Positions 1,113 to 64,000 of a stretch of DNA of 64,000 nt are shown in pieces. Positions within the stretch are counted from its first letter, which is position 1, and each line of letters begins with the position of its first letter. The notes under the pieces were generated by a model. It had not been told where the DNA came from and did no database searches. It worked only from the letters and a program-made list of their open reading frames with translations. The DNA comes from Posidonia oceanica (Eukaryota; Streptophyta; Magnoliopsida; Alismatales; Posidoniaceae), in the NCBI GenBank assembly GCA_037176725.1, contig JAZBRS010000057.1, forward strand, positions 87,999,501 to 88,063,500, read 5' to 3'. The position numbers and the translations under genes are program-made.

Positions 1113-1571
1113 CTACTGATAGTACTTCTTGAGGTAGCACATGTTGACCGGTTCAGACTGCTCGACCTGGTCCATGTCCTCAAGAGTTACTGCGCCGCCT
1201 GAGAAGATCTGCTTAACTACAAAGGGTCCGCGCCAATTAGGTCGGAATTTGCCTCGACCGTCTGGTAGGTGAATGGCACGCAGAACAAGATCTCCGGGCT
1301 GGAAGCTTCTGGGCCAGACTTTCTTCAGGAATGCTCTAGCCATTCGCTTTTGATAACAATGGGCATTGTGCATGGCTTGTAGTCTGTGCTCATCAATCAA
1401 GTTCAGTTGGACGCAGCGGTCTTCGACCCATTCTGCTTCTTCCAACTCAGCTTCTCGCAAGATTCGCAGCGAGGGTATCTCCACTTCAACAGGCAATACA
1501 GCTTCCATGCCATACACCAGCGAGTACGGGGTGGCTCCTGTCGAGGTCCGGATTGATGTCCTGTACGCCTA
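1113..1571 (-). pseudogene. pol: C-terminal part of El1 integrase, cut off by an in-frame TAG
   Basis: This continues the pol reading frame without a shift after a TAG at 1571-1569. It encodes the end of the integrase core and the C-terminal domain: a YGMEAVLPVEVEIPS segment typical of plant gypsy integrases, a K-FRPNW-GPF box near the end, and a final LKKYY. There is no chromodomain, as expected for Tat and unlike chromoviruses. The stop falls in the conserved core just after residues LPYAL, where relatives usually have tryptophan, so it looks like a single G-to-A change. Without read-through, El1 would make an integrase lacking this domain. Confidence 0.85.
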
Positions 1572-5486: not shown

Positions 5487-5501
5487 GACTGCTCGAGCTG
5501 A

Positions 5502-8500
5502 CTATATTGCCTGTGATGCGGCTTCTGAAAAGGGCTGAGCTGTGCTGCTGACTAAACTCAGCGACTGACCTTTCTGCGAAGGTGGTAGCTGCACCGATGC
5601 GACAAGGGTTGCATGCGGACTAACTGACTGTGCTTGAGCTGGTGCCGATGGTGCTGACATGACTGCAGGAGAACCAGAGATTGCCAAATCTGCCAAGGGT
5701 TCTGTCAAGACTGCTGCTTCATGATCTATGGAAGGAGTGGCCAGATAAACCGACTGATGTGCTGTTGCATAGGGCTGGCTTTCACTGCAAGTCTGAACTG
5801 CCCCTGTTGTGCCCGACTGTTCCTCGTCCGAGTAGTAGTCCTCAACGCAGACCCAGTCCTCCTCCGATGGCGGAGGGCTTCGACACGGCTCCGACGGCAC
5901 TACGGCTTGAACTGCGCTTGAGTCCAGGATACCTGCGCTCGTGAAGTTGGCCAAGCTCCGAGGTATGACCAATCTCTGATTCCTTGCTTGTGGGCGCTTG
6001 CCTTTACCGGAGTGAGGGTCGTAACCTAGACCCTCGTTGTCCCTTCGTTCTTCCGCCAGGATTGGTTCAGCGATTCCTTGGCCATGTCGCCCGAGCGGTG
6101 TCCCTTTGACATAGCCCCATCTGTGACAAACGTTCTCGACCATCTGAAAGGGGTTGTTGTGAACGGCCAAGGAGTTGACACGTTCAAGATCTGGTAAAAA
6201 GTTAACCGGCTCGCACCGATTAACGTGATACAAAGCGTTCGAAAGATCAGGGTCAAAGGGGACAGTCCGCGAAGAGATAGAAGAAACCGCCTCGATCCGC
6301 TCCTTCTCAAAGTTCTCCGCCATGACTACGATAACATCGTCGCCTCGGCGGAACTTGATCATGCGATGGAGGGTCGAGGGGATGACCTGATGCTTGTGGA
6401 GCCAAGGGCGCCCAAGCAGAAGGTTGAAGTTCGGTTCCAAGTCGACGACGTAGAATTCCACATCGAATGTGACCGGGCCAATGATAAGAGGGATAACCAG
6501 AATCCCTAGAGCGTCATGGTGAGTGTTATCAAAAGCTGTCATTCCCTTTACAGCTGGAGTAATGTCCTCGGCCTTGAATCCGAGCTTGGTTGCTGTTCGC
6601 AAGGGACAGACGTTAAGGCCTGACCCATTATCGACCAGTGCAAGGGGAATGCGAAAGTTCTTGAATTGTACCGTGACGAACAAGGGTTGATTGTGATTAA
6701 TCCCTGCCGGAGGCAGCTCATCACTCGTGAAAGTGATGACCTGGGGCTCCGCGATCATTCCGACCATGCTTTCCAAGGCGGCAGGTTCTATGGCTTGGGA
6801 CACATGGGCGGCTTGGAACACGCGAAGGAAAGCTTCGCGGTGTTCAGCCGAGGTGTGTATCAGGTCCCAGATAGATATGTCGGCTTTAACTTTTTTGAGC
6901 TGGGATGTGATATCGACTTTAGGTTGGCATTTCTTGGTAGCAGGTGGTGCAGTTGTAGGGACAGGTTCAGCTGTGGTGGGCTCAAGAGGCTGGCCTGAAG
7001 GTAGTGGGACTGCAGGCTGGACCAAAGGCAATGATCTTGTAGGTTGTGGATGACTAGGTCTGGTTACTGGTGCCGGAGGTCTGTAGACCCTCCCCGATCG
7101 CGTCACTTCCGCACACATCTCTGTGGCGTAGCTGTAGGGTACGCGATGGGTATCCCGGGTTAGGTTAATAACCACGGGAGCGCGTGCGGCGAGCACGAGA
7201 GGGGTTACAGGCTGAGGAAGGCATGGGTAGGTGGGTAGTTGGGAAGGCAGACTAGGTGGGGACTGAGGTCTTGCTAGTAGGTGCACGGGAAGCTCTGGCT
7301 GAGGTCTGGCTAGGAGATGTATTGGGGCTTGGGCCTGGGAAAGCATGGCGGCTGATGCAGGAGAACGCTCCGGCCTGGCGCGCGGTCGAATCATATGGAC
7401 GCCCGACTCGGAACCGGCGATAGCTGCAAGATAAAGAGAGACTGGAAAGGGAGTAGAAACATCATGGATAAGTTCGGAAGGATCTACCACAGATGTGAGA
7501 GATCCAGAAGGAAACAAGGAGTGAATTCCTGAGGTCCCTGCGCCTCCTGAATAGGAGTGCTCCGGCAGGGGTCGGCGGACAACATTGGCTGGGGTAGATG
7601 CTGATGCAGGTGCATGAGATGGTGCAGAAGTGGATGCCTCGTGCGTGTCGATCACAATCGTTCCCGATTCGATCAAGTCCTGGATAGCATTCCGGAGAGT
7701 GAAACAACTATCAGTCGAATGCCCGACGCTTCGATGAAAGTCGCAGAAAAGGTTCGCCTTAAACCAATGCGGTAGTGGGTTTGGTGGCGGGCGAACCTCC
7801 GGAAATCGCAGGAGCGACGCAACCTTCGGGAGGACGGCACTGAGCGGTTCCACCAGTGGGGCGAACTTCCGCTTTTCTATGGGTGGCCGTCTCGGCCTCG
7901 GGAATTGTCCTTGCTGAACCGGTGCGGCAGGATAGACCGGTCGAGCGGTGGTAGTGATTTGTGGTGTAGGGTGTGCCCTAAGTGCAGGTGCGTAATAGAT
8001 CTGAGGAGGGGCAAGCCGGGACGCCAGACGGACGGGCGCAGCAGGGGAGTCGACGTATGCGACAACGGGCTTCGGCGGGTCCTTCCTCTTGGGACGGTTG
8101 TTGTTGAGACTGCTGTTGTTGTTGATGGCGCTGCTGCTACTACCGTCGTTGCTGGCGAGGGCCTGCCTGGCAAGCACAGAGAGTGCGGGGAAGTTGCCAC
8201 TCCGCAACGAACTCTCTACGCGAGTGCCAGCTCGGATCAATGCAGTGAAGGTCGTGACAGGTTGGATGCTAAGCAGAGCTCCAGTAGATGGCTGTGCCCC
8301 TTTTATGATGATCTCGATAGACTCCTCGTCGGAGGGCCTATCTCGAACTTGCGAGGCAAGGGCACGCCAGCGGCCGACGTACTCCCCGAACGGCTCGCCC
8401 GGATTCTGCTTGGTTGCGATTAAGTCCGCGCGCTTTGGGACCAGATCGAGGTTGAAGGAGTACTGTTCCAAGAACGCCTGGCTTAGGTCGTTCCAAGTCT

Positions 8501-9854
8501 TGATCGTAGCCATGTCAAGCGAAGTGAACCACTTGAGGACCGGACCAGACAAACTCTTCTGGAACAGGCGGATCAGCAACCTCTCGTCCGCCTGGAGTTG
8601 GGCGAGATCACCGCAGTACGCCTTCAGATGGGCTATGGGGCAGCCCCTACCATCATATTTCTCGAAGTCCGGTATTTTGAACTTCGGGGGGAGTACCGCC
8701 TCTGGGAAACAGCAGAGGTCTCGGAACTGGTAGGTCTGGTGGTCCGTGCCCTGCACTAGACGCAGTGCTTTCTCCAGAACATCCATCCTGTTGTTGATGG
8801 GGTCTGGAATAGCTGCTACAGATGATGGGGCAGCGGGGGCGGGGACCACGTATGCCCAATGGGTCGCACCGAGGTGCTCCTCCGGATCCACCATCACATC
8901 GCCTGGTGACGCAAGGTGATGGCCGGCATACCCGTGCTGTGGTGGAGTGCAAGGAGGGATGCATGTGGGATTCTGAGCCTGATGCAAAGGGGGAGGATAG
9001 ACGGTATGCTGTGCGGTGGGTGCAGGATGCTGGAGCATCAGCGGCCGTACCGGGGCGATGCCGGGGGACGGGCCTGCGAGATACTGTGCTCCCACCAGTC
9101 CGAACGACTGGCCACCAGGTGGCGGAGGTGTATGCTGTGTGAGGTGTGGTGCTGATGCAAGAGGCGGAATACGTGCCCCCATCGTCGGAACCGTGAGCAG
9201 TTGGGACGATGGTCTAGGCGGAAGTGCAGAGTGCAATGCAAGATGTGCGAGAGCAGGCCGCACAGGAACCTCAGGAACAACAGGAGGGGAAGGAGGGCGG
9301 ACTGATAGAGCTATACCCTGCAGCCGCTGGATAGTGTCCATCAGTTGCTGGTACTGCTCTTCAGGTGTCCCGTCAGTGGGAACACTGAATTGCAGCGCCG
9401 GCGAGGAACCAGAACCAAGAGATCCGGACTGTCCGGGAGACTGGAATCCTAAGGCGTGAGTCGCCGCAGCAGAAGGGTCAAAAGTGACAAAACCCTGAGA
9501 AGGTGGGGTCAGTGGTGCCTCCAGAACACGTGAAGTGGTCATCAAGATGGACTCGGCGACCGGATCGGGAGGAGTGAGCGTCTGCCACTGTCCCACAGCA
9601 AACTGGGGTGCCCCAGACGACAGAGGGGTAAAGCCTGGCGTCACAGAGGGCACAGAGGGGTTAGAAACGGGAACCGGAGGGGCCGGAGCGGGAACCACCT
9701 CCGAGGCAAGGGTGAGGGGGGTCTCGACAGTGCGCTGGGCCATTGCTGACCGAGAGCGGGTCAAAACGGGGCTGCGACGAGGGAAAAGGGGACGGACTCT
9801 ACGAGGAGCTATGCTCGCAAAGACGAGTAGCTCAGAAAAAGGATGGTCGAGCAC
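5502..9854 (-). CDS. gag-pro: El1 gag-protease polyprotein
   Basis: 1450 codons. Residues 1-380 are Pro/Ser/Ala-rich and disordered. A retrotransposon gag capsid domain lies at about 390-550 (KFKIPDFEKYDG start, then EPFGEYVGRWRALASQVRDR). A zinc-knuckle-like motif of the plant Tat/Athila kind (C704, H707, H712, C717; C-x2-H-x4-H-x4-C) follows at 704-717. The aspartic protease is at about 1055-1180, with the active-site box LVDNGS (D1075) in place of the common DTG/DSG, and the LLLGRPWL box at 1145-1152. A G-patch-like stretch (GYVKG..LGRHGQGI..) follows at about 1239-1280. Gag builds the particle and binds RNA; the protease cuts the polyprotein. The frame ends in TAG at 5504-5502 and pol resumes in the same frame. 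The chosen Met is the first in the frame. Confidence 0.9.
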   Translation of the reverse strand: MLDHPFSELLVFASIAPRRVRPLFPRRSPVLTRSRSAMAQRTVETPLTLASEVVPAPAPPVPVSNPSVPSVTPGFTPLSSGAPQFAVGQWQTLTPPDPVAESILMTTSRVLEAPLTPPSQGFVTFDPSAAATHALGFQSPGQSGSLGSGSSPALQFSVPTDGTPEEQYQQLMDTIQRLQGIALSVRPPSPPVVPEVPVRPALAHLALHSALPPRPSSQLLTVPTMGARIPPLASAPHLTQHTPPPPGGQSFGLVGAQYLAGPSPGIAPVRPLMLQHPAPTAQHTVYPPPLHQAQNPTCIPPCTPPQHGYAGHHLASPGDVMVDPEEHLGATHWAYVVPAPAAPSSVAAIPDPINNRMDVLEKALRLVQGTDHQTYQFRDLCCFPEAVLPPKFKIPDFEKYDGRGCPIAHLKAYCGDLAQLQADERLLIRLFQKSLSGPVLKWFTSLDMATIKTWNDLSQAFLEQYSFNLDLVPKRADLIATKQNPGEPFGEYVGRWRALASQVRDRPSDEESIEIIIKGAQPSTGALLSIQPVTTFTALIRAGTRVESSLRSGNFPALSVLARQALASNDGSSSSAINNNSSLNNNRPKRKDPPKPVVAYVDSPAAPVRLASRLAPPQIYYAPALRAHPTPQITTTARPVYPAAPVQQGQFPRPRRPPIEKRKFAPLVEPLSAVLPKVASLLRFPEVRPPPNPLPHWFKANLFCDFHRSVGHSTDSCFTLRNAIQDLIESGTIVIDTHEASTSAPSHAPASASTPANVVRRPLPEHSYSGGAGTSGIHSLFPSGSLTSVVDPSELIHDVSTPFPVSLYLAAIAGSESGVHMIRPRARPERSPASAAMLSQAQAPIHLLARPQPELPVHLLARPQSPPSLPSQLPTYPCLPQPVTPLVLAARAPVVINLTRDTHRVPYSYATEMCAEVTRSGRVYRPPAPVTRPSHPQPTRSLPLVQPAVPLPSGQPLEPTTAEPVPTTAPPATKKCQPKVDITSQLKKVKADISIWDLIHTSAEHREAFLRVFQAAHVSQAIEPAALESMVGMIAEPQVITFTSDELPPAGINHNQPLFVTVQFKNFRIPLALVDNGSGLNVCPLRTATKLGFKAEDITPAVKGMTAFDNTHHDALGILVIPLIIGPVTFDVEFYVVDLEPNFNLLLGRPWLHKHQVIPSTLHRMIKFRRGDDVIVVMAENFEKERIEAVSSISSRTVPFDPDLSNALYHVNRCEPVNFLPDLERVNSLAVHNNPFQMVENVCHRWGYVKGTPLGRHGQGIAEPILAEERRDNEGLGYDPHSGKGKRPQARNQRLVIPRSLANFTSAGILDSSAVQAVVPSEPCRSPPPSEEDWVCVEDYYSDEEQSGTTGAVQTCSESQPYATAHQSVYLATPSIDHEAAVLTEPLADLAISGSPAVMSAPSAPAQAQSVSPHATLVASVQLPPSQKGQSLSLVSSTAQPFSEAASQAI

Positions 9855-11043
9855 AGGTGTCTCAGTAGAGATGTCAGCAAAGGAGAGACCCGAGCTCCAG
9901 CTAAGGAGATCGCCTACTGAACTCTGTTAAAGACACAACAGGAAACTAGGGTTAGAAAAGAAAGAGATGCAAAATGCATTAAGTTATGGCATGAATGTCA
10001 TGTATGCTTTCTAGTATGCCCCCCTCACCTAACTAGTGTTTCCTAGCAAGGTTGTCTACTCCGGGTATCCCTGGGTGTACGGGTCACCGACTCAAGTCAG
10101 AAAAGTAGGCTCCCTGTCTAACTCCCGGCCCAAAGCTCAGGTAATGACAGGGTGGTGCGTTGGTGGCCTCTACCCCGCCAAAGCGTGGGTGGTACCCTCC
10201 ACTAACACCGACACGGCCCCGGACAAGGGGGGACAGATCGACTGACTCACACCATGCCAAAGCATCGGGGTGAGAAGCCGGAACCATCCTTCGCAGACTA
10301 GTAGGTGGACTCAGAGGAGAAGAATGCATGCCCTATATGATGCTTATGCGAATGATTAAAGTTTTTTATCTTGCACATTTTATTAACCAAAAGGGAGTGA
10401 AGGATTGTTCAGAGTCTCTAGTTGTTCCTAGAAGTTCTTTTACTTGCATTTTTTAGTTAACCATGGGGAGAACAGACAAGTTTCTACTATCCTAAGCATG
10501 GCATGCGCGAAAGGGAAGAAAATCAGGCAAGCATGGCAAGCAAACAATCATACAACACAACAAAAGGCAAGTGCATGGCATGTGCGAGTGTTTGTGAACA
10601 TAATGGTGAAGAAAAACATTCATCAAGTCAAAAGGCATGTATGCAAGGTATGTGCGTGCGTAGTGACATAGCAAAGGTGTAAAAGAAGCATTCAGCATTC
10701 AAAAAGCATGTATCGTCGCCAAACAAGTATGTAGACACGCAATGTGCGAGAATTAAAGCAATAATAAGCAAGTAAGGCAAAGAAAATAAAGACAAGTAAG
10801 CCGTAAAGGAAATAAGAGCATAAGCAAGGCAATAAGTAAATAAACAAGCACAGAAGCAAAGCCAAGCAAAAGAGAGCGCAAACCGAGATAAAAAGGGTGC
10901 AAAGCCTAGGCAAAGTAGCCACAAGGCGACTTTCTAGGTGTTTGCACAGAAAGGCGAGCAAAACAGACAAAGGAAACACAAAGGCAAACAAAGGAAGCAA
11001 ATCCCAAACGAGCGAAAGCGGAGGCGAAAGCCGGAGTCTAGTA
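9855..11043 (-). other. El1 untranslated leader between primer site and gag
   Basis: About 1.2 kb with no convincing gene. Two blocks are clearly related to the El4 leader: 10140-10340 matches about 44580-44790 (shared plus-strand string GGTGGTACCCTCCACTAACA and nearby text), and 10490-10680 matches about 44930-45120, a TGCATGG/AAGCAAG-rich block. Conservation of the leader between an autonomous element and a pol-less one suggests packaging or translation signals, but that is inference. Confidence 0.65.
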
Positions 11044-17372: not shown

Positions 17373-17974
17373 CCTGTCCTCACCACATCACCACCTATAA
17401 TGCCAACAACCTATTCCTGAGCGCCACCAATAAGCCGAGAGTCTGAGTAGGGCCCAGTGAATCAAGGACCACTCCCTTCCTCTGCAGCAGGCACCAGAGC
17501 ACTCCGTACGCTGAGGGCACCCAAGCATCCACCCCAGCATACCCATCCATTCAAACATACTTATTCATCCAATAATATTCATCCTCATAAGCATATCACC
17601 TGCATCATGCATACATGCATCTTCTTTCATTCCTTTCCTCTTCCATCAATCTCTCCCGCTCTGCAACGCGCTTTGGCCCTGAGACAGTACTCCTCCCCAG
17701 CAGAGGCACATCGACGACACTCAGGCTGCGCCGGTCCAGATCACCTGCCGGCCCTCGCCCCCGCATTCGCCGAACTGCTGCCAATTCCCTTTGTTTATTT
17801 GTGCTTAATTGCTATGTTCTGTTATCAACTGCTGGATGCATATGGAACTACATTTTCAGTCTCAGCTACTGCTTGTTGTCAAAGATTATATGCCTGCGAG
17901 ATCTGACTGTTTATTGATAGCAGGTACTTTCAAGTTTCTGCAGCTATCTGCCTGTCCCTCTGCAAACCAGCGTA
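17373..17974 (+). other. El2 leader remnant upstream of the DUF7745-like gene
   Basis: About 600 bp without a credible gene; a 149-codon frame at 17457-17906 is His/Pro/Thr-rich and has no recognisable domain. The last 50 bp before the gene align with 29090-29133 in El3 (AGCT-TCTGCCTG then GGGTTTCCCCACTTT-like text). Left of 17373 the element is cut by El1. Confidence 0.5.
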
Positions 17975-19177
17975 ATGGGCTTTCCTACTTTGCTGACTCC
18001 CGCACATTGCTCGGAAACCCTGCGAGAATGGATCGGCAGGCTCACTCAAGTAGACTGTGAACAGCCGCGCCTGTGGGGCATACCAACCAAGCTGCTAAAG
18101 GCTGCTGATGTGGAGGTCAGCCGCCACCTTCTGTGTGCCGCCGCGAGATTCTGGAAGCCGGCGCATCATGTCTTCCGTTTCAACAAAACTGAGCTGACAC
18201 CTACACTGGAAGAGGTGCGTCGGATATGCGGCTTTTCAAAGATCTTGGGGCCACCTGTTTTCATGAGGCGCGACGGATATCTCCGGGTCCTGAGCCAACT
18301 GACTGGTCTCTCCACTCAAGCCTGCCAACAGAAGCTAATCTGCACCAGTGGACCAGAGCCTATGCTTCGCCTTGCATACTTTGATAATATCTTGAACAAG
18401 CGCGCTGACCTCGGAGATGAGCTGTGGCTCCGAGGATTCGTCATCCGCTTTCTAGGCGAACTAATCTTTACTCATGGCCGACTGACAGTGGCCATCGAAG
18501 TCGTAGAAATTGCACTAGCTGTGGTGACGCAGCACATAGATCTGGCACCAGTTGTCTTGGCAGAGACTTATCGCGGGCTGGACCGCATTTCTCATCGCTG
18601 CCGCCACTTCCACGGTTGCGGAGCACTCATACAAGTCTGGCTGACCGCGCACTTAGAGATGAACTTTCTGCGCCCTCAACTGCACGCCTTCGAAGCCTAC
18701 TGCAGTAGCGCCCGTACCAGAGCAGAAAAGAGCGTCAAAGACGAGTACGAGAGGCTGTCAGCACTGACTGACGACGCTGTGATCTGGCGCATCGTTCCCT
18801 CTACAGCAGAGCCATTCACAATCTTCTTCAGCGCGCGTGACACGCGGCTGATCATTCTTCCAGGCTTCACAGCAGGCGTAGAGTACCATCCAATCAGGGT
18901 CATGCGCCAGTTCGGCTTCCAGCAGGGCGCCTTCATTGACAATACAGTGCCCGAGCTTCTACAGACTTATCCTCTCAGCACCACTGCCCCGACCAAGAAG
19001 CTTGCTAGTCTGATGCAGCACGGGGTCCAATCCACAGACATTGCAGCTGTGAGAGGTACTGGATGCACTCCTGATTATGAAGCTGAAGTCCGGCAGCTCT
19101 GGCCAATCACTGAAATTCCGCCAGGCGGCCCCTTATTCCCCAACTCCAGACAGCCAAAGAAGGCCCGGGTTGACTAG
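17975..19177 (+). CDS. DUF7745/plant-mobile-domain-like protein carried by El2
   Basis: 400 codons, intact. The segments KTELTPTLEEVRRIC (71-85), WLRGFVIRFLGELIFTHG (151-168) and, at 198-224, TYRGLD..., CRHFHGCGALIQVW match the conserved pattern of plant DUF7745 proteins, relatives of the plant mobile domain family, which is known to be shared between host genes and transposons. Biochemical function is unknown, and no catalytic motif, signal peptide or membrane span is visible. A basic tail (QPKKARVD) ends the protein. The start is supported by the El3 homologue, which aligns from this codon onward (ACG there). The gene takes the place of gag-pol between leader and 3' arrays. Its intact frame, against a ruined copy in El3, suggests either recent insertion or selection. 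The family assignment is from pattern memory. Confidence 0.75.
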   Translation: MGFPTLLTPAHCSETLREWIGRLTQVDCEQPRLWGIPTKLLKAADVEVSRHLLCAAARFWKPAHHVFRFNKTELTPTLEEVRRICGFSKILGPPVFMRRDGYLRVLSQLTGLSTQACQQKLICTSGPEPMLRLAYFDNILNKRADLGDELWLRGFVIRFLGELIFTHGRLTVAIEVVEIALAVVTQHIDLAPVVLAETYRGLDRISHRCRHFHGCGALIQVWLTAHLEMNFLRPQLHAFEAYCSSARTRAEKSVKDEYERLSALTDDAVIWRIVPSTAEPFTIFFSARDTRLIILPGFTAGVEYHPIRVMRQFGFQQGAFIDNTVPELLQTYPLSTTAPTKKLASLMQHGVQSTDIAAVRGTGCTPDYEAEVRQLWPITEIPPGGPLFPNSRQPKKARVD

Positions 19178-20390: not shown

Positions 20391-20674
20391 TGACAAGCAC
20401 GACACTCTTGTCATCACTCTCTGCTTTCGATGCCAAGGACACGCAGGCCAACCCCTGGTGTCATCCCGACACCAGGGGCATCTTTTGATCGCCCCTTGGT
20501 ATCATTCTTTCCCTCTTTCCCCTATGACGTTCCTGGCGTCATGGGATGATTTCTTCTCATCATTCCCTTACCCCTTCTTTGCCGGCCGATAAGTCCGATA
20601 TCTTATCACTCTCATCATTCCCTTACCCCTTCTTTGCCGGCCGATAAGTCCGATATCTTATCACTCTCATCATT

Positions 20675-21605: not shown

Positions 21606-21739
21606 TCATTCCCTTACCCCTTCTTTGCCGGCCGATAAGTCCGATATCTTATCATTCTCATCATTCTCTCATCCCCTCTTTGCCGGCCGATAAGTCCGAT
21701 ATCTTATCATTCTCATCATGATCTTGCCCCCTCTTATCA

Positions 21740-23204: not shown

Positions 23205-23287
23205 CTGCTCCCGCCAGTCAGATGGGGTGTCTTGTCAACCCTGAGCAGCGGCCACGCTCCGCTTGCCCTCGCTCAAGGAGGGGCATC
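23205..23287 (+). promoter_or_regulatory. El2 pre-PPT box and polypurine tract
   Basis: The PPT AAGGAGGGGCA (23275-23285) and TC precede the LTR start at 23288; it would prime plus-strand DNA synthesis. Upstream, AGATGGGGTGTC (23220-23231) is the exact reverse complement of GACACCCCATCT inside the LTR start (23292-23303), so a 12 bp stem can form with the PPT in the loop. The whole box is conserved at 32525-32612 and, reversed, at 38238-38330. Confidence 0.85.
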
Positions 23288-23999
23288 TGTTGACACCCCA
23301 TCTTGGCAGGCTTGGACCCTTGGAGCCCCCCTGGTAATTGTTGGATCAAACCCCAACCAAACCCTAACCCTAACCCTCCTCTCTACCCTTCAAAATCAGC
23401 CTATTTTGACCTAAACCTTTACCCCCCTTCCCAACCTCAAAACCTAACCAAAATCCATAGGGAAACCCACCACTATCCATTCAACAAGCCTATCCAAGAA
23501 CTTAGAAATTTCTAAACCCAACCCATCCTTGAAAACCCTAGGAAACCTAGGAGAAACTACCCTTCTTCTACACCTTGAAACCCCTCCAAAACCCCCTTTA
23601 GAATCAAACCAAAACTTCAGACCCAAGACTTCAAATCCTAAACTAACCACTCACCAATTCTCACCCCATTCCCAGACCATTAAGACCCTCTTTCACCCAA
23701 ATTATCCTTTTCTCTCTCTGGGATTATCATTTTCTCTCTCCTCTCTCTCTCCTGATTATCATCTCTCTTTTCATCCCTTTCTTATCCTTTTTCTGGTCTG
23801 GCTGTGGGCCCCCTCTGTGCTTCTATCCCTCCTCTATCTTATCCCTATTTTTACTTTATTTTTAACACTTTTTCTGAATTTTTAAAAATCATTTTCCTCC
23901 AACCTATCCTTTTTCCTTTTATCTCCCTCTTTTTTCCATTTCTTTCCTCCTTCTCTTTTCCTTTTCTCCCTTTTGCAAAAATCCACAAAAACCCATAAA

Positions 24000-24780
24000 A
24001 ATCTGCAAAACCTCAAAACATAAAAGGAGCAAATCAGAATCCTAAGAAAAACAATTAAAAAATGTTAAACAAGCAATTAACAACTTAAACTCAACTTAAG
24101 CAAGCTAAAAAGGAAACCAAGCGTGCAAACTAAAAAATGCAAAACAAATCAAAAGAAAACACTGAAAAATCAAGCAAAAAGCTAAAATAAAATCAAAACC
24201 CACCAAAGGTAAAAACCCATCAGAAGAATTAAAAAACAAACCCAAAAAGAAGAATTAAAAAATCAAATACTAAAACAAGTAATTTAGGAAGGCAAAAGAC
24301 CTAACCTAATAAACATAAGAAAAACAAGTTAAAAACTTAATTAAAAAAGAAAAGAAAAACACATCTGAAAGACTTAAAAAACACCCTATCAAACCAGAAA
24401 AATCCAACTAAAAACTTCAAGAAAAAACCAATAAATAAAAATCAAAACGCAACTTAAAAGACTTAAGAAGGAAAAAACCCTAAAAAGACTAAAACTTAAG
24501 AACCTAAAACCAACCCTAATTAATACGAAATAAATCCTAAAAAATCCTAATCAATATTCTAAGTGTCCAACAAGGGAAATACAATTTTTAAAACAATTTA
24601 AAAAAGGTTTAACCAACATTTAATCAAGTGAAAACCAATTAAAAACAAAACCAAAACCCTAAAACCCTAATCAAGCCCAAAACACATTAACCAACTCAAA
24701 ATAACCATTAAAAATCTTAATTAAAATCCTAACCTACAGCAAAACTCTTCTAATATTTTTACTTATTTTTAGTTTATTTT
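24000..24780 (+). other. A-rich block of the LTR, no gene
   Basis: Very A-rich, with many AAAACC and AATTAAAA words and no open frame worth calling. It corresponds to the T-rich plus-strand DNA at 15900-16600 in the oppositely oriented El1 LTR. A CTTT microsatellite follows at about 24815-24850. Confidence 0.6.
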
Positions 24781-25193
24781 TACCTATTTTATTTCCCCAT
24801 TCTACCCTCTCTTTCTTCCTTCCTTCTTTCTTTCTTTCTTTCTTTCTTTCCTCACTGGGCTCAATCCGGCCCGTTTCTTCTTTCTTTTCTTTTTTCTTTC
24901 TTTTTTCCCGGCCCGCAGCAGTCCGGCCCGCTTCCTTCTCCTCCTTCTTCTTCCTCGCGCTTCCACTGGTTTTCTTTCTTCCCGCGAGCTGCTGCCAACA
25001 GTCCTCCCTCTCCTTTTTAAATTTCAAGCTCCCTCTCCATCAGATCATGCAACAGCAGCCCGCCGCTCTCTCATCTCTCAGTGCCTTTTCCGGAGGCTTT
25101 GAATGCCGGTCGACTCGCCGACATCCATCGCGTCTGCTGCAGTGCCGCCGATGAGTTTGAATTCAGCAGCGCGCCAGCAGCGGCTCCTCCTGA

Positions 25194-25199
25194 TATAAG
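25194..25199 (+). promoter_or_regulatory. Candidate TATA box of the 23288-29088 LTR
   Basis: TATAAG inside CTCCTGATATAAGCCC is followed about 30 bp on by an A/G-rich leader (GAGAGGGATCAGAGAGAGAG), a common layout for plant core promoters. It would make U3 about 1.9 kb long. There is no experimental support, and the El1 copy is degraded at this point. Confidence 0.45.
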
Positions 25200-28100
25200 C
25201 CCTTTCTTCCTTCAATTTCGAGAGGGATCAGAGAGAGAGGAACGACCATCAGTGCGAGTAGTCAGAGAGAGCAAGCCACCTGAGATTTATCAGACCAGAA
25301 TTTCACTTCTTCCCCACCTGTGCGACCCGTTCTCCCTTCTTCCTCTTCATCCTTCTAGTTCAGGAGAGAGCAGAAGAAAGTTCGAGAGTCCAGTGCATCC
25401 CGGAGAGGCCACCCAATCCCAGAGCAATCCCCTCCTGAAACCTCTCCCATTCCTTCCTCAAAACTCAGCAGACTCTTCCCCTTCTTTTCCAAATAAACCA
25501 ACACCCTTCCTGACCTTCATCCTTCTCCCAATTCCTTCCCCAAGTTCACCCAGAAACCCAGCAGCCCTCCTCCACCATTTCCCGGCCTTTCACCACCCAG
25601 AACACCCCGAATTCACCCGAACTTCCACCACTGAAACCAACTGCAACCCAACACCTTCCCTCCTGAAATTGCCTTCACCACAGTCCACCGCATCTCCCCG
25701 AATCCTTCCCCGACACTCACCTGCACTTCACCTTTCCAGGCCACCCGATCTTCAGCCCTTTCCCTCACCACAGACTCCAAACGCCACCACAAACAGTTGC
25801 TTCACCCACTGATCAGAAACCGACCCGACCTTCAATCTCCACCTACACTCTACAGAAACCCAATTCGACCGCCCAGAACCCTTCCCCAGACCTCCAGCAA
25901 TCCCCCGGAGCACTCCATCCAGCCTGGGGAGCAGCAAACACCCTCCCCGGTCTCCGGCTGTCATCCTCTGAACCCACAAACACCGATCCCTCGTCCGAGC
26001 AGCTGAGGTCCCTCCTGACCGCTCGAGAAGCTTCGGAGCGTCATCCTGAGGACGTCCGGACCACCGCGAGCCGCCAGCATCCTCTACAGCAACCGGACGA
26101 CGAGCTCCGGCCGGCTCCTGCACTACTGAGATCGGGGGCACGCTCCGGACACGACCAGAGGTAAATCTTCCCTCCCCTAGCTCCCTCTCCTCCTCCTGTT
26201 GCTTTTCTGCTGGTCAGAACCAAGCTCCGAGCCTCCCGGACGCCGCGGCAGCTCGCCGGACAGGTCTCCTTCTCCGGCGCCGGCTGCTCTTCCTCCGGAC
26301 ACTCCGACCAACAGAGCGAGCTCCGGACCGTTCCCAGAGCTCCGGACGATCGCCGACGTCGTTCTCTGCCCTCCCGCGCCTCCTCAGCCTCCCCTGTCGG
26401 CGACCTCGAGTACTGCCGGCGTTCTGCTATAGTACTCGTCGCCGTCGACCAGTTACTGTGCATTTATTTTATCCTAGCTAAAGTTTTTAAGTAAATATTG
26501 CATATTTGGTTTAAGTTTCTGTCATTTTACATTCCAGTCCTTATTTCATCTAATCTGCTGTGCTTTTTAACCGAAATCATATTAAATTGCATAATCTGTT
26601 TATGGTTTTCAGTATTTGCAAGTTGGTCCATTTACTGTGCTGTGCTGTTATAATGTTTTGCATTTTAGCCCCTCTGTTTTCGTTTTTTGCATGTAAGTCT
26701 TGCACTAAATCATTTCATTTAAATGCATTAACTTTACCATACTACATTGCATCCTGGCCCCCTGCATGTTTTTATTTTTGCATTTAAGTCCCATGCACTG
26801 TAGAACTTAGGATTTATTTTTTATTTTTGCATACTGCATTGCATATTTTACCTTCTAGTTTTGCATATTTGCATTTAGGTCCATTTTAAATGGACAGTAA
26901 CTCTTGCATGCATTTTTAGCTTATTGCATTGCATTTTTGACCCTGATCTTTTTAAAAATTGCACTGTGGTCCTGTCCTTTATTTTTCAGGGCATGTTTTC
27001 CATACTAAATTGCATTTCCAGCCCCTGCATGATTTCAAAATCACACATAGGTCCCTGCACCTTTTAAAAAATCATGTGAAAAGACCATTTTGCCCCTAGG
27101 TTGCATCTTAGCTCCTATGCCTACCAAATTGCATGCAGACCTTCTACTAGCATTCCCAGACTCCCCAGAATCTTGTTTTCTGGAAAATTTGCATTTTAGA
27201 CCCTAGTTTTTCCAAAATTGCTTTCTGATCCCTTTCTGCTTTCAAAACCTCTTTTAATGCATACCCTCTTTTCAAAACAACTTTCTGAGCCTAGTTTTTT
27301 GCCAAATAGACCTCTGTCTTCCCCTGTTTTCGAAATCCTTTCCTGTGGGCCCCTGTTTTCTGGAAAATTTGCATTTTTAGCCCCTTTCTTTTTCAAAATG
27401 CCTTCTGAAATCCTGGTTTTTCCCAGTTTCTTCTCTTTGCCTTTTCTTGCTTTTGCATGCATCCTGCATTCATTTAGTCTTGCATTCTAGCATCTTCTTG
27501 CACACACCAAGCACTTTTAGCTCCCTTCCACTTGGGAGAACCTTTTTGCACATCCCTAGGACCTCCTGAACACCTAGATCTGTTCTTCTCCCCTGTTCTG
27601 GCCCTCCTGTCTTGAAGCTGCGATATCTTCCAATCCGGCCGTTGGATCTTCTCAAGTAAGTTGCCCAGGCGACCGCAGCAAAGCGCTCTTCAGCATGGAC
27701 TAGACAGATCTCAGATCAGGCCCCCGGATCTCCAGGTATGTCCTCCTAAACCCCTGCATTGCATTCATCTGCATGCCATTTGCACAGTTTTCCGTGTTTT
27801 CGCTTTCTGTCTCTTTGAGCATGTAGAATAGGGTCTCCCCTTTCTGCTTGTATCTTCCAATCTCCGTTTCGCGTACTCCCGAGTCTTTTGCGTCATGTTT
27901 TCCCTGGATTTACCACTTAATATGACTTTCTTCCCCCTTTTCCACGATCCGATCGCATCGCGAGCTTTGGACAGCATGCGAGACACACCGTGGAATGGTT
28001 TGGTGGGAAACAGTCGCTAAGAGGTGGTAATCCCTCCGTTTGCACACTCTCTCCTCTGTAGGTCTTCACACCTACCCTGAGTGGTCCTAAACGACGTTTG

Positions 28101-29133
28101 TTTTTACACACACGTTGTTTTGACTCCCCTTTAGCCTTTTCTAATCTCTTTCTGCATTCTTGCATTCGCATGGCTTTTCTGAGGTTTTTGCTTCGCTGTT
28201 TTGGCACCGTTTCGCGTGCCCGCTCTCGCTTTTGCACCGTTTCGCGTGCCCTTCTGTTTTCTTGCCTCGTTTTATGCGCTGCCTTGTTTTCCCACTTGTT
28301 TTGCGTGCCGGTTTCGTTCTCTTGCACCGTTTTGCGTGCCATTCTGTTTTCTTGTCTTGTTTTGCACGCCGTTTTCGCTCTTTTGCATCGTTTTGCGTGC
28401 CTTTCTTGTTTCTCGCCTTGTTTTGCATGTTTTACGTCGTTTTCCCTTGCATGTCGATCGCATTGCATGGTTTTCTCACTATTTTGTTTTCTCGCTTGCA
28501 TTTGCATATAGGGCTGTGATGCTTACTGCCTGGAGTTCTCACGAGCTAGGTTTCGCCTAATTCGGAACACAGACAGCGCAGCTGAGCACTTAGAGAGCAC
28601 GTTTACTTCCTTGCTTTGTTTCTTCCCACTTAGAGCACACCATGAGCATTCATTCAGGCATTTATAGGCACATAGGCATTCAATCCTGCATTTCCCTGCG
28701 TATGCGAGCGTAAGCCTAGAAAGACCGATTCTCGGGCTTGTCGGGGGTGCCTAATACCTTCCCCGCACGTAACAGGAGTCCTTACCCTGTCTTTTGGCCC
28801 GCAATGACCGTACTGCCCTTATCCTAGGCTAGAGTCATCTCATTTGCATCTGCTTGCATCTGTTTTCCTTTGCATTGCTTTGCTTTGCATTTCTTGCTCG
28901 GTTTTGCGCGTTAATTCACGCATTACCCCGGTTTTCCTCGTCTTCCGTTAATAGACGTGGTGGCGACTCTGATTTGTCTTATCTTTCCTTTTTCTCCTCG
29001 ATTTCAAGTGTTTTCGAGTTGAGCCTCTTCCTCGGATCTCAATCGCCGCTATATATTAGCGAGCCTGGTTCCGATCGGGATCGCTACACTAGCTGCCTGC
29101 ATTCTCTCTCTTGCAACGGGTTTCCCCACTTTA

Positions 29134-32544: not shown

Positions 32545-32612
32545 AGATGGGGTGTCTTGTCACCCCTGAGCCACGGTCTCGTTGTGCTTGACCTCGCTCA
32601 AGGAGGGGCATT
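32545..32612 (+). promoter_or_regulatory. El3 pre-PPT stem and polypurine tract
   Basis: The left arm AGATGGGGTGTC (32545-32556) can pair with GACACTCCAT in the LTR start (32617-32626). The single C-to-T change in the right arm still allows a G-U pair in RNA. The PPT AAGGAGGGGCA (32600-32610) sits in the loop. Confidence 0.8.
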
Positions 32613-35006
32613 TGTAGACACTCCATTTTGACGGACTTTCAGTTGGAGAATCTCAAGTGATCTATTCAAATTGTGGCATAGTGAAACCCGATTTCTCACC
32701 TAAACCTAACCCAAAACTTTGACCTGATATCACTCAAACCTCAAACCCAAATCAACCCAAAACATTCCAAATACCTAGAATCCAACATCACAAGCCTTCA
32801 TAAAGCCCAAAACCCATTGGTGGGTCAAGGACAAGGAAATGGGCCTAGATTACACTGTACATGCCCAGTCCACTGAGTTGCATGCTTGGTCGCCACTCGC
32901 AGGGGCGACTAGACCCTATCGCCACTAGCAAAGTCGACTAGACCTAGTCGCAACTCAAAGCGGTGACTGGGTTTGTCGCCAGCGAGACCGGTGATTTTCT
33001 GCAACTCAGACCACCACATGAATTTCTTCCGACCTGCCACCACCGGTCCCCTCCTCCGCCGCGTGGCCTGCCACCCCGTCCTCTCCCACACTTACTTTCC
33101 ACTACCTCCACGCACTACACACCAACAACCACTTACTTCCTTGCCACCGGTCACCCTCTTCACCGATGGCCTTCCCGCTGTCTCCCAAGCCACTGACCGG
33201 TCGTCCACTTCCTCTGCAACTGATGACTTCTTCGTCGTCCTTCCCTGCCCACACCTGCCAACCACTTACTCGGCTGCAGAACCTAGCACCAAACCCGCTC
33301 TCAGCCACTCTCACTACCACCACCTGCTCCATTGAGCTCTTGGTCGGCAAACAAAACCATGTTGAACCCATCACTGTTGAACCACCACACATACAATTGA
33401 GAATCCCTAGAGAGAATTCGAGCATCCCAGAGTGATTCCCTTCTTCCCTGGTGCGTTCCAGTGAGAATTCAAGCCTTCCCAAGCCTCCCACACCTTGCCA
33501 TCCCACATGAACCCATCGCCGGCCTTCTTCCCCAACTCAGTTCGTCTTCTCCGACAAGCCACAGAGGTGATACACCTCACCCCATTGCCTGTCTGAGGGT
33601 TTGGGAATGTTCCCGGAACTCCTCCCTTCACGGCTGAGTGACTCGACCGCTTCCTTGCGCTCTTGGCCATGCCAACGGTCGATGACGCGCGGCAACACTG
33701 GCCAACGGCCAGCAGGGGCGGGAAAGAGGCACTTGCCTCTTCTCTTAGCCCACGGATGCTTCCCTTACATCCCCCTCATCCTCGCAATGCTTCCTAACCT
33801 ACTCATAGGGTCGCTAGCCGCTCACATGACCGGCCATCGATGAGCTCCGGCAGCGCAAGGAGGAGGAGGTGGGTGGAGCATTCTAAGCCGCCATTTTCCA
33901 CACCGAAGGTGTGGCTAGGTTCGTGGGAACGTCGTCGACGTTCTCCGATTCTCCCTGGCCTTTTCCAGTTCACCTGGAGCGCGTAGTTCGCCGTTGAAGT
34001 TTGTTCATCGGACTACCAAATCAGCCGCCGCTGCAAGTGGCGACTGACCTGCAACTTTGAACTGTCACTGGTCGATCTTTGGGCCGATGCTCCAGGCGAT
34101 CCAGCCCACCATTTTGCTTGATGTTTGTATGTCTATGATCATGGATGAATGCTCTTTAATGTCATATACTTGGTTGCTTCTTTTGTATCACGTGTGGTGC
34201 GAGATTTGGCGCCAAAGTCCGCTGTTTGGACTACCTGATTGCAGAGGTGTCGCCGATTTCACCGGCGACTAACCTACAACTTTGGCAGTCCACTGGCTGG
34301 ACTTTGAGCCGGTGTATCTCGTTACCCAAGCCTCTGTTTTAGGTATTTTTGTTTCCTTGTAATCGTGGTTGATTGCTCTACAGCTTCGCATCTTTAGTTT
34401 TCAATCTTGAATGGCTTTGGGTGTGGGATTTGGTCATGGAGTTTGGTCCTGGACTACTAGTTGAGCCGCCGCTCACACCGGCGACTCGACTATATTTTAA
34501 CAGTCCACTGGCTGAACTTTCGGCCATCGTATCTCGTTACCCATATTTCTCTTTTACAACATAATTGCATAGTTTTAATCTTGGGTATGCCATCTTTAAT
34601 CCTGTATGCTTGGTTTCATGTTTTGCATATTCTACATAGCTCATTTTTTGCAGCAAAGGCTACTGCTTGGGAGCATTGTGCATGGCCTTGTCGCCTGTGA
34701 GCATGGCGACTTGTTCATGCGCCACTCACAGTGGTGACCTGGTCAGTTGTTGCTCTCAACGGCGACCCACGTTGCAGTCCAGGTAGTGGGCTGTGCCGCT
34801 CGTCGCCTTCTCGCCTTGTTTGATCGACTTGCTTTAATGTCGACTTTAATCCTAGAAATGCTATCTTTATTGTTATGTTGCTAATTTTATGTTTCGTGTG
34901 GTTTTTCTTAGTTTTCTCGGTGATGATTGTTACTGTATTGGTAGCAGAATATGTGCTCCATGTCGCCTGTTCTACTGGCGACAACCACTGCCGCCGCTCA
35001 GGCGAG
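32613..35006 (+). repeat. Truncated 3' LTR of El3, a different LTR subfamily
   Basis: It begins TGTAGACACTCCATTTTGACGG after the PPT. It is interrupted at 35006/35007, where El4 sequence in the opposite orientation begins, so its right part is missing. It contains several inverted repeats built on GTCGCC/GGCGAC (32889-32995, 34018-34050, 34240-34275, 34465-34490, 34685-34745, 34962-35005), three of them about 225 bp apart with related spacer text (CAGTCCACTGGCTGGACTTT, TATCTCGTTACCCA). No gene was recognised in its short frames. Confidence 0.7.
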
Positions 35007-38000
35007 GGATGCAAAGAGGGGGCAAAGGGATGCGATGCAACATAATGCGATGCTATGCTATGACTCGTGCCTAGGATGAAGGAAAGGTCGATGCGGGTCA
35101 AGAGAAAGGGCAAGGACTCCTGTTACGCACGGGGAAGGTGTTAGGCACCCCCGATACGTCCGAGAGTCGGTCTTTCTTAGGCAATCTCGCGCGCTAATAC
35201 AGGAAGGTGCTGGCCTAATGCCTAAATGTAATGAATGTCTGCCTGCTATGCATGGGAAATAAACGTGCTATCTATGTGCTCAGCAGCACTGCTAGTGTTC
35301 CAAACTGGGCGAACCCTGGTTCGTGAGAACTCCTAGTCAGTAAGCATCATAGCCCTAATGCAGATGCAGGCGATAAAACAAAACTACAGGGAAAACCAGA
35401 CAATGCAAGCGACATGCAAGGGGCAAACCAAAGCAGGCGTGAAAAATGGTGCGAAAGCATGGAGAACGAGGCAAAAGCGCGGAAAACGATGCAAAGGCGC
35501 AGAAAACGATGTAGGGGCACGGAAAACAATGCAGGGGAGCAAAAAACAATGCAAAGGCATGGAAAACGATGCAAAAGCGAGGTACAAAACTAAAATAGGG
35601 GTCAGGTAGCATGCATGGGGGTAGCAGTACGCATAAGAAACCATAAAACATGGAAAACGGCGAACGAAATCAAGTCGGCGTTTTAAAATCAAATTCAGCC
35701 TACTGCAAGCGTTGGACGCTGGCAACACCGGCGTCCAACGTTGGTCGCTGGCACTGCTGGCGTCCAACACCTACTGGAGGCAAACAGCATGCAACTTTTG
35801 AAAAAGGATGCATTCTAGCTATATGAATGCAATGCAGATGCAGAAATGCAGCAAAATGGGTGCATGACATGCAGGGCAAACATGGCAACAAAACAGAAGC
35901 AGATTCAGAGCAAGGGGCAAGCCAAAATTAGCAATTAAAACAAGCAGGGCGTTGGACGCCCGTGGGCATGGCGTCCAATGTTAGACACCAGAGAGACAGG
36001 CATCCAACACAGGCCAGAGGAAAACAAGACAAATAAGCATACAGATGACAAATAAAATACTGGAGCATGCATTTGGACTACTGTAGACAAGCATAGACTA
36101 AGCATGCAAGCATAGGATACAAAAGAAACCAAGAAACCCACCATCTGCAACATGTGCCAGGCATGGAGCTCAACCAGAGCGTTGGACGTGAGCTGAACCA
36201 GCGTCCAATGTTGGACGCCAGGAACAGCAACGTACAACGCACTGGGAGGCACAAACACACAAGAACTTTCATAAAATTTAGCATATGAACTAAGGAAGTT
36301 GAGGAGTAGATGCTACGAAGGCTAAGCAAGCGTATGAACACAGGAATCATGCAAACATGCATATCAGAGCAACATGCAAACATCTAAAAGCAAAGTAGAA
36401 GAACAGGGACATTAGACGCTGGTGACAGCAGCGTCCAATGTTGGACGCTGAAGTCCCCGACGTCCAACGCCTGCAGAATGCAAACCCACCTGTACATGGG
36501 GGAGCTCGGCTCTAAACCCCATCTAACATACATGCGAGCTACTAATGACATGCCAGATCAAGAAAGAAGCATTCACCAAGCATATAATCCATGAGAAGTA
36601 AGAAAGGAAGAACATGCATAGGAGTAAAGGATAAAAACCCAAGAAATGGATAGCATGCAACTTAAGAGGACATTAGCAAGCCTAAGCATGGTTGCCATAG
36701 GGGCCAGGCATCACTAAGCATACATGGATCATGCATAGATATCAAAAAGAGGAAAGGTGCAAGCATGGCAGCAAAATAGAATTAACAGACATGTTGGACA
36801 CTGGATGAACCAGCATCCAATGTTGGACGCGGCTCACCCAGGCGTCCAACGCAGGCAGACAGCAGATGACTTAAAGCATGCAAAAAAGATTTAAGGCATG
36901 ATCCAAACAAGAAAGTAGGCATGGCATAGCATCTGAGAACACGTAAAGAAGGCATGCAGCTTGGGTTTGCAAAAAAAACAAGCAATAACAAAGCATGGCA
37001 AAGCAAGGGCAAAGCAAGGGCAAAGGCAAACAAAGCAGGGTGTTGGACGCTGGCTACTGCCGCGTCCAACACACTGAAGATCCTCCTGGCCACGAATCGC
37101 GACCAAAATGATCCAAAGCTGGAACCTAAGGATCCTGGAAGCAAGAGGGGGTCGAGACGAACACGCCGGTGTGTTCGAAGCCGGAAATGGTTGGCCAGAT
37201 CAGGCCACCCATCTCCACCACCTCGCTGCCGGAGGCTGAGCCAATTCCGGCCAACCAAGGCGGCGTGCAAGTGTATTAACTAACCTAGCATGTTGCTACA
37301 TGCGTGCACTAGCTAAGGGAAGCGAGAACCTACCTATGCGTGGCCTAGAACGGCGTGTCGAGCTCACGGCCGGCGCTGTGGAAGATGGCGGCAGGGCTGA
37401 CTTCGGCGAGCTTGCTTGGCTTGCTGGGGGCATGGGAGAGGGCGACGACGGTTCGGGAAGGAAGGTGGATACTTGGTCTTTGCTCTGGAGGTGGTGAATT
37501 GGAGAGGGAGTGGTTGTGCTGGTCTCTGTGTGTGTGCAAAAGTGGCTGTTTGGCATGGTTTTGTGTTGGGTGCATGGGTTCTACTGCAAATGGCAGCGGC
37601 TTGCAGAGGAATGGCAAGCGATGGCAGGGCTTTGCAGAGCTTTTGGGTGAGGGGAAGGCACGAGGGTGGCAGGTGGGGGCGTGGGCATGCCAGAGGGTGG
37701 CGCCGGAGATGCTGTGGCAGAGGAATCAACGGTGGATGGCAGTGAGGAGAAGAGAGAGCGGGAAATGGGCTGGGGAAGAAAAGATGGATAGTAAGTGGAG
37801 TAACTCGGCCTTGGAAGGTAGTGGATGGCCTGGAGTGCAAGAGGGGACGGGTAGTAAGTGCGGAGGGGCGGTGGAGTGGACGGGAGGTGAGCCGAAGGAG
37901 GCGGAGTAGCCGCCGCTGCAACCGAGTCGTTGGACGCTAGAGCAGAAGGCATCCAACGTTGGATGCTAGCACAGGGCGCGTCCAACGTTGGATGCTGCCT

Positions 38001-38237
38001 ATTCTAGCATACAACAAACCCAAGATGCAAAAGGCTGAAATGGGCTTGGGCTTGGGCCTAGAAAGGGTTTAAAAATGTGCAAAAAGGCTTGGGTTAAGGC
38101 TTTGGGGTTTAGGTAAGGTTTAGGTTTGGTTTTGGGGTAGAAATGGATTTGCCTAAAAAGGAGTGCCATCCCAGAATCCAAACGAGCCTGTAGGACAAAG
38201 CCAACAACTTCCAGGCTATCAAAATGGGGTGTCTACA
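35007..38237 (-). repeat. El4 3' LTR, missing its final 227 bp
   Basis: It matches 45574-48816. On the minus strand it begins TGTAGACACCCCATTTTG at 38237 after the PPT. It contains seven GTTGGACGC/GCGTCCAAC hairpin modules (near 35710, 35950, 36180, 36410, 36792, 37041, 37928). Relative to the 5' LTR it lacks one 28 bp hairpin at about 37066. The GC-rich part, 37060-37990, has open frames on both strands but nothing recognisable. Confidence 0.9.
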
Positions 38238-38238
38238 G

Positions 38239-38305
38239 ATGCCCCTCTCTGAGCGAGGTCAAGCGTAGCGAGACCGCTGCTCAAGGTAGACAAGACACCC
38301 TATCT
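38239..38305 (-). promoter_or_regulatory. El4 PPT and pairing arm
   Basis: The minus-strand PPT TCAGAGAGGGGCAT (38252 to 38239) precedes the LTR start. The far arm (plus-strand GACACCCTAT, 38294-38303) can pair with the LTR start (plus-strand ATGGGGTGTC, 38225-38234 region) with one mismatch or wobble. Confidence 0.75.
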
Positions 38306-60602: not shown

Positions 60603-60678
60603 CCCTCTTTGTGTCTCGTCCAAGTCTGGTGGCAGCAGGCATTGGATTTCTTTTAGGATCCCTGGGTAGTGCCACACG

Positions 60679-60739
60679 GGGGTATCGTGTCACCTTATAG
60701 CTAGATTCGTGCCATAGCCACCTACAAGGAGGGGCAATC
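60679..60739 (+). promoter_or_regulatory. El6 PPT and pairing arm
   Basis: The PPT AAGGAGGGGCAATC (60726-60739) precedes the LTR. GGGGTATC (60679-60686) is the exact reverse complement of GATACCCC in the LTR start (60744-60751). Compared with El2 (GGGGTGTC/GACACCCC) both arms carry the matching change. Confidence 0.85.
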
Positions 60740-63940: not shown

Positions 63941-64000
63941 TGTAGACACCCCATTTTAGCCAAGGGGTCACAGCTGGCTGGGGACACACTGGGAGCACTC
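63941..64000 (+). repeat. Start of a further LTR inserted in El5 pol
   Basis: TGTAGACACCCCATTTTAGCC, the family LTR start, interrupts the chromovirus frame just before its RT domain. Only 60 bp are visible; the rest lies outside the window. Confidence 0.75.

Follow-up and report, generated by a model that had tools for sequence, protein, structure and literature searches.

In the seagrass Posidonia oceanica, Tat-clade Ty3/gypsy retrotransposons appear to carry a conserved cis-acting fold at the border between the polypurine tract (PPT) and the 3' LTR, and we consider it somewhat probable that this fold helps to define the plus-strand primer. Judged by comparison of its copies, the fold is real in the source genome, widespread and supported by covariation; its proposed role in plus-strand priming is likely. 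The starting point was a stretch of 64,000 nt (the window), for which a preliminary description had proposed a structure that frames the PPT/LTR border and is kept by paired changes. Cognate-arm, fold and tree tests all support that proposal.

An LTR start of the type TGTWGAYACYCC (three mismatches or fewer) is matched nine times in the 64-kb window, where 1.3 matches are expected by chance, and four of the nine are the starts of 3' LTRs lying behind the PPT AAGGAGGGGCATC or a near variant. In these four elements, El2, El3, El4, and El6 (Table 1), the 3' LTR opens with bases complementary to a stretch 54 to 71 nt upstream of it, and the PPT lies in between. The spacing from left arm to PPT is 39 to 43 nt, and the right arm starts at LTR base 5 in all four; in a further family, T, introduced below, it starts at base 6. 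The arms lie where the preliminary description had located them: an exact complement in El2; the same left arm in El3, facing a right arm with two C-to-T changes that are both compatible with G-U pairing; a near-complete pair in El4, with eight contiguous pairs and a core interrupted by one A.C mismatch; and, in the El6 stem GGGGTATC/GATACCCC, a matched change from G-C to A-T on both sides, with the pairing extended outward by GTGCCA/TGGCAC. "Covarying in four elements" nevertheless overstated the case, as El6 is the only one of the four with a two-sided change, and El4 breaks a pair. GATAT is present outside both El6 LTRs, as seen by eye; this target duplication fixes the start of the LTR. 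The El2, El3, and El4 junctions are plain homologues, matching by blastn over 143 to 179 bp at 77 to 81%, and so are not independent of one another. For El6 the blastn alignment to them covers just 29 bp, at the PPT and LTR start; an nhmmer match to them follows by construction, since El6 had been in the model.

Table 1. Coordinates of retrotransposon features and predicted helix strands (P1, P2) in the window
Feature	Position	Strand	Sequence	Basis or remark
El1 coding region: gag, protease-like, RT, RNase H, second RNase H, integrase	1113..9926	-		Pfam; integrase end by comparison
El2 region, plant mobile domain ORF	17921..19177	+		Pfam PF10536, E 2e-21; Ogre feature
El2 P1 left arm	23220..23231	+	AGATGGGGTGTC	Exact complement of 23292-23303; RNA fold
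El2 P2 left strand	23239..23246	+	CCCTGAGC	Pairs with GCTCAAGG, one C.A mismatch; matched changes between families
El2 P2 right strand	23271..23278	+	GCTCAAGG	Overlaps PPT start
El2 PPT and ATC spacer	23275..23287	+	AAGGAGGGGCATC	11-base core recurs genome-wide
El2 3' LTR (start 23288, with PPT)	23288..28992 (end approximate)	+		Start common with El1 5' LTR; far end from partial BLAST matches to El1 LTR
El2 P1 right arm, LTR bases 5-16	23292..23303	+	GACACCCCATCT	Sequence, RNA fold
El3 P1 left arm	32545..32556	+		Identical to El2 left arm
El3 PPT and spacer	32600..32612	+		
El3 3' LTR start, with PPT	32613	+		
El3 P1 right arm	32617..32628	+	GACACTCCATTT	Two C-to-T changes relative to El2, both G-U compatible
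El4 P1 left arm	38294..38305	-	AGATAGGGTGTC	One A.C mismatch in core
El4 PPT and spacer	38238..38250	-	AGAGAGGGGCATC	Variant PPT
El4 3' LTR (start 38237, with PPT)	35007..38237	-		LTR pair 93% identical; 5' LTR about 45574-48816
El4 P1 right arm, LTR bases 5-16	38222..38233	-	GACACCCCATTT	
El6 outer left arm	60669..60674	+	GTGCCA	Pairs with TGGCAC 60756-60761
El6 inner left arm	60679..60686	+	GGGGTATC	Sequence, RNA fold
El6 possible P2 left strand	60693..60700	+	CCTTATAG	Complementary to CTACAAGG 60722-60729, one mismatch; absent from El6 minimum-energy fold
El6 PPT and spacer	60726..60739	+	AAGGAGGGGCAATC	
El6 3' LTR start, with PPT	60740	+		
El6 inner right arm, LTR bases 5-12	60744..60751	+	GATACCCC	Sequence, RNA fold

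Duplex energies between each LTR start and its own upstream stretch were compared with those of 2000 random stretches of the window; 2, 15, 19, and 13 of these reached the element's own value in El2, El3, El4, and El6, respectively. By the same measure the five LTR starts in the window without the PPT were ordinary (513, 1655, 1146, 395, and 1609 of 2000). RNA fold z-scores were -2.40 for El2, -2.84 for El3, and -2.56 for El4, and only -0.65 for El6, whose own RNA fold is not clearly better than its shuffles.

The source genome (2.96 Gb, 80 contigs) was searched with three patterns. AAGGAGGGGCANNTGT, which comprises the PPT and TGT and includes no stem arm, matched 11,183 times, against 6 matches for the reversed pattern. 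Two narrower patterns, which contain right-arm bases (LTR bases 5 to 9 and 5 to 10), gave 3,594 and 4,841 sites, respectively, with zero control matches. We assembled 163 distinct junctions (90 + 9 + 40 + 20, plus the 4 window sites). Ninety came from the first 100 PPT-plus-TGT places; the other ten comprise L113 and L121, which entered via the 3,594-site pattern, and eight that are absent from the set. The 3,594-site pattern contributed 9 new junctions among 30 loci, 21 of which repeated earlier sites, and 40 further sites; the last 20, from the 4,841-site pattern, were picked for variety. All non-window test sites lie on contigs C1 to C3, and L001 to L008 were viewed and left out of the tests. 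The 163 junctions fall into family D (El2-like; 87), family T (LTR start TGTAGATATCCC; 66), family E (El6-like; 8), and two singles, L170 and L180. Among the 90 sites taken with the PPT-plus-TGT pattern were 66 T, 23 D, and 1 other that proved D-like. Two junctions, L180 (upstream sequence not homologous) and L188 (left arm deleted), were excluded from the tree counts and included in the count of folds against shuffles. L180 (G000:C2:31640285-31640560) has a D-type LTR start immediately preceded by a PPT-like GAGGAGGGGCATC, and its upstream sequence clusters with no other fetched junction.

Integrase placed after RT-RH is the Ty3/gypsy order. The pol of El1 has this arrangement; the Pfam order is RVT_1, RNase H, RVT_3 (a second, archaeal-type RNase H), and integrase, and the protease-like match falls just below the cut-off. 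By LTR match, the apparent 5' LTR of El1 belongs to the El2 family, and this LTR, together with the second RNase H between RNase H and integrase, points to the Tat clade of Ty3/gypsy. A second RNase H has been named as a mark of Tat, and a plant mobile domain ORF was reported in 57% of Ogre elements (PMC6317226). Such an ORF is present in the El2 region (Table 1), and the El3 region has a match to the domain at 29266-29778 (E 1.5e-7), below the curated cut-off. On their predicted domains, the best-assigned elements are Tat-clade Ty3/gypsy (Ogre/Retand), and the plant mobile domain makes the El2-family elements most likely Ogre. Pfam detected no pol domain in three El6 ORFs or in seven ORFs upstream of an E-type site (L190), and applied to nine ORFs near T and D sites it assigned neither family. 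At one T-type locus (L189), an integrase C-terminus 46% identical to that of El1 lies about 4.9 kb before the PPT and could belong to a nested element; no second RNase H was seen near this locus, and its long pol-to-LTR distance is a likeness to Retand (PMC11963269). The fold may span deeply separated Tat lineages, as suggested by this one, possibly nested, T-type locus. Two patterns and one protein scan of viral contigs returned no relatives outside the source genome.

The stem withstood folding against shuffled controls. Scored as at least six pairs between the LTR start and the stretch upstream of -40 in a single-sequence RNA fold, it was predicted in 147 of 161 family members (D, 80/87; T, 59/66; E, 8/8), compared with 124 of 483 controls in which the upstream sequence was shuffled (D, 57/261; T, 59/198; E, 8/24); for the two other junctions the counts were 1/2 and 2/6. 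Three helices can be distinguished. In P1, LTR bases 5 to 20 (to 26 in one family) pair with a stretch about 54 to 75 nt before the LTR. In P2, the AAGG that opens the PPT, with the bases preceding it, pairs with CCTT-type bases further upstream. An apical hairpin flanked by the P2 strands, P3, occurs in two of the three families (T, GATCTTG-TTC-CAAGATC; E, GCTTCG-TGC-CGAAGC) and also in L170 (TGATTTTG-TAC-CAAAATCA); the printed RNA folds gave no clear counterpart in D. The layout is visible in 25 printed folds, with the exceptions of El6 and L047, which are without P2 and P3; L021, L058, and L071 are without all or most of P1, and L188 has lost the left arm. Departures from perfect pairing are a 3-nt bulge in El2, wobble pairs, and one additional G in E. 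Sixty of 63 matched T sites have a C.A mismatch at LTR base 8, and 60 of 83 matched D rows have one at the third P2 pair, counts that cover regex-matched rows only, with some letters fixed by the regex (P1 rows: D, 79/87; T, 63/66; E, 6/8; P2 rows: D, 83/87; T, 59/66; E, 8/8; L170, 1/1).

Between P1 and P2 lie the PPT core and the border, where ATC meets TG; PPT bases pair, partly through G-U, with an upstream pyrimidine stretch. In the RNA folds this upstream pairing takes up 7.1 of 12 PPT nt in D, 7.5 in E, and 10.4 in T. Pairing of the PPT with the LTR involves 0.4 nt in D, 0.2 in T, and 0.0 in E, versus 4.8, 2.0, and 5.1 in the shuffles. Total PPT pairing is not above that of the shuffles in D (8.6 of 12 nt in both) or E (8.2 of 12 nt in both) and is higher only in T; in the folds predicted for D and E, the shuffles differ in the partner of the PPT only, not in the amount of its pairing. 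Of the five border nucleotides, 3.7 are open in D, 4.75 in E, and 3.45 in T, versus 2.6, 2.9, and 2.1 in the shuffles. In the predicted RNA, the PPT is mostly paired with upstream sequence, and the PPT/LTR border is the open part. The preliminary description had the PPT in a loop, a picture that fits the minus-strand DNA fold better than the RNA folds, which pair most of the tract. The RNAalifold consensus lacked P1 in both the D and the T+E alignments, preferring a PPT:LTR hairpin, GGGG to CCCC.

If the fold helps to define the plus-strand primer, it could act at two stages. In the genomic RNA, the upstream strands would prevent the PPT from pairing with the LTR start (GGGG:CCCC) and would keep the border open. 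On the first-strand cDNA, with the template cut by RNase H, P1 and P2 would re-form as DNA hairpins beside the PPT hybrid; the PPT would then be the sole RNA still annealed, and the LTR would begin at a fixed base. A tentative proposal, which we hold with low confidence, is that the selected molecule is the first-strand cDNA itself, in which DNA hairpins P1 and P2/P3 would flank the PPT, strip flanking RNA fragments, and leave a single primer with fixed ends. With RNA parameters, the minus strand folds better against its own shuffles than the plus strand (mean z, -3.30 versus -2.36) and is the better strand in 48 of 63 representatives (Wilcoxon p 5e-7); the result for E alone is not significant. 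With DNA parameters it is better in 17 of 27 D (p 0.07, not significant), 25 of 27 T, and 8 of 9 E representatives. Several common departures, such as the C.A of T at LTR base 8, are G.T wobbles on the minus strand. This preference is only a lead, because, if the LTR and PPT are fixed for other reasons and the left arm alone drifts, transitions would produce it wherever the right arm has A or C; against the minus strand, moreover, much of the pairing between PPT and pyrimidines relies on G-U pairs of the plus-strand RNA. Counts of G-U versus A-C were abandoned as a strand test, being confounded by which arm is free to change.

Alternatively, the fold may serve the genomic RNA in some other way (export, packaging, dimerisation, or 3'-end stability), the PPT being present there only because of its place at the 3' end of the internal region. 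Two observations count for this explanation: retroviral RNA export elements are located near the 3' LTR, and, folded as RNA, three of the window's four elements outdo their shuffles. Against it, P1 and P2 start 4 nt into the LTR and within the PPT, respectively, and PPT and LTR hardly pair at all in comparison with the shuffles. We regard it as unlikely and prefer a role in primer definition.

Selection on pairing was examined with arm swaps and on a tree. Cognate arms paired at -23.8 kcal/mol and swapped arms at -20.5 kcal/mol in 34 cluster representatives, a difference reached in 0 of 20,000 permutations. Within D, the advantage of cognate arms was reached in 12, 0, and 1 of 20,000 permutations (27, 42, and 56 representatives), and within T in 49 of 20,000. 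Cognate pairing was not better than swapped pairing in E alone (12,738 of 20,000; n = 8), and the outer arm of D alone was not significant (5459 of 20,000 at 80% clustering, more at other clusterings). Across 46 D rows, 84.6% of P1 cells pair, compared with 41 to 54% when the arms are slid; column shuffles of D gave a modest result (covariation score reached by 9 of 500, cells paired by 28 of 500), and most P1 pairs seldom vary within this family. In the same number of D rows, 84.7% of P2 cells pair, but P2 shows no covariation there.

On a tree of 161 junctions, the 23 base pairs of P1 and P2 underwent 18 matched Watson-Crick changes, versus 4.7 expected from random partnering of the same columns (0 of 20,000 draws). 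P1 alone gave 11 versus 4.1 (202/20,000) and P2 alone 7 versus 1.6 (25/20,000); in 74 rows, P3 gave 3 versus 0.7 (636/20,000), and all helices together 8 versus 1.5 (9/20,000). Both sides of P3 change in step in 18 rows (T, E, and L170), with A-U in 10 against G-C in 8 and none broken at one pair, for example; in T+E, four of its six pairs show two-sided change in 6 to 8 rows and breakage in no more than 2. P1 changes between families are favoured in these counts, because the register of P1 between families was set by pairing. The counts for D alone (6 versus 2.1; 513/20,000) and T alone (4 versus 1.1; 1010/20,000) have no such freedom of register, and these single-family tests are weaker than the pooled one. 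A stricter same-branch count for P1 is also weak (4 versus 1.5; 1282/20,000). There are 249 losses of Watson-Crick pairing on the tree; frequent breakage of pairs is expected for dead copies. The covariation anticipated for a larger alignment is borne out by the 18 pooled changes, with the qualifications that the single-family tests are weaker and that RNAalifold prefers another consensus.

Matched changes would also result, in one step, if a mutation mechanism kept the arms alike, one arm being copied onto the other through template switching at a near-palindrome, with no selection for the fold. The departures from pairing are long-lived, however (the T mismatch at base 8, the extra G in E, the El2 bulge, and the wobbles all persist), and P2 and P3 also show matched changes between families; we find this explanation very unlikely. 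Shared ancestry alone, with an inverted copy of the LTR start arising once upstream of the PPT and then being inherited, would account for the homology of El2, El3, and El4, for the rarity of variation at most P1 pairs in D, and for the weakness of covariation tests in single families, but it is already weakened by the better pairing of cognate than of swapped arms and by the excess of tree-counted matched changes over random partnering, and we give it little credence.

The preliminary description knew of no account of such a structure; the idea of a repeat framing the PPT is, in fact, not new. Bousios et al. (2010; PMC2829016) reported that a precisely placed inverted repeat surrounds the PPT/3'LTR junction in almost half of classic Ty1/copia elements and, with three exceptions, in their Sireviruses; in their proposal, it serves to present the tract to RNase H. 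Their repeat has since been cited in a paper that mentions an HIV case and asks for a systematic search (PMC3601003). As here, one arm lies upstream and the other inside the 3' LTR, the terminal PPT lies between them, and the proposed role is the same. In the Ty1/copia repeats, no gap separates the left arm from the PPT, and the mean distance from the LTR edge to the right arm is 28 bp (18 in classic elements); here about 40 nt intervene between left arm and PPT, and the right arm starts at LTR base 5 (base 6 in T). The present fold, in Ty3/gypsy rather than Ty1/copia hosts, also differs in having a second helix, formed in part by PPT bases, and an apical hairpin in two families. What is new is the lineage, the geometry, and the covariation evidence, and, beyond the earlier observation, the second helix starting in the PPT and the apical hairpin of two families. 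Reading by the second RNase H, which the preliminary description had suggested, is not needed to explain such a repeat, because Ty1/copia elements, which are not known to have a second RNase H, carry such a repeat as well.

In SIV and HIV RNA, the PPT lies within a conserved RNA motif with its G-rich 3' half paired, and it has been argued that a primer acting as an RNA/DNA hybrid is unlikely to depend on RNA structure (PMC3616985); the available text of that paper describes no three-helix fold with the LTR start. The PPT of yeast Ty3 is base-paired in RNA, and the boundary nucleotides are reactive (PMC11381356); its pairing is of lower probability, and the available text gives no inverted repeat with the LTR. 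The open-licence PubMed Central literature, to the extent of its available text, yielded no report of such a fold for Tat or other plant Ty3/gypsy elements; a paper on Retrosat2 (PMC3485330) offers, in its available text, protein structures only. The tract itself does not fully explain how RT chooses one purine tract and the exact base at which the LTR starts. That two superfamilies bracket the tract with folds of differing geometry would point to structure near the PPT having been favoured on more than one occasion, an idea that becomes testable with short RNAs and oligonucleotides. The fold also offers a sequence signature for true 3' LTR borders in large plant genomes.

Several further features were recorded. 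GTWGACA of the LTR start could also pair with TGTCWAC, and the two seemed by eye to covary; this alternative was dropped as a stable helix, the key column being A/A in 29 of 46 D rows. Between LTR bases 2 to 8 and the upstream TGTCWAC in D, an upstream T is accompanied by A in the LTR in 6 of 6 cases, and a T in the LTR by an upstream A in 9 and a G in 1. The LTR starts at 63941 (+) and 51453 (-) are of the same type, without this PPT upstream, and by eye are probably those of 5' LTRs; the former appears, also by eye, to lie inside pol-like sequence of another element. The gag ORF of El1 (5502-9926, minus strand) contains a G-patch domain downstream of the protease-like match, and the very long LTR of this element (about 6.2 kb) includes a 30-bp repeat array at 11867-13138. 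A 36-bp repeat array, with 27 register copies listed, occupies 20521-21756 in the El2 region, and repeats of 66, 36, and 30 bp lie at 56613-57506 within a 485-aa ORF of El6 that has a weak, below-cut-off match to a repetitive protein family.
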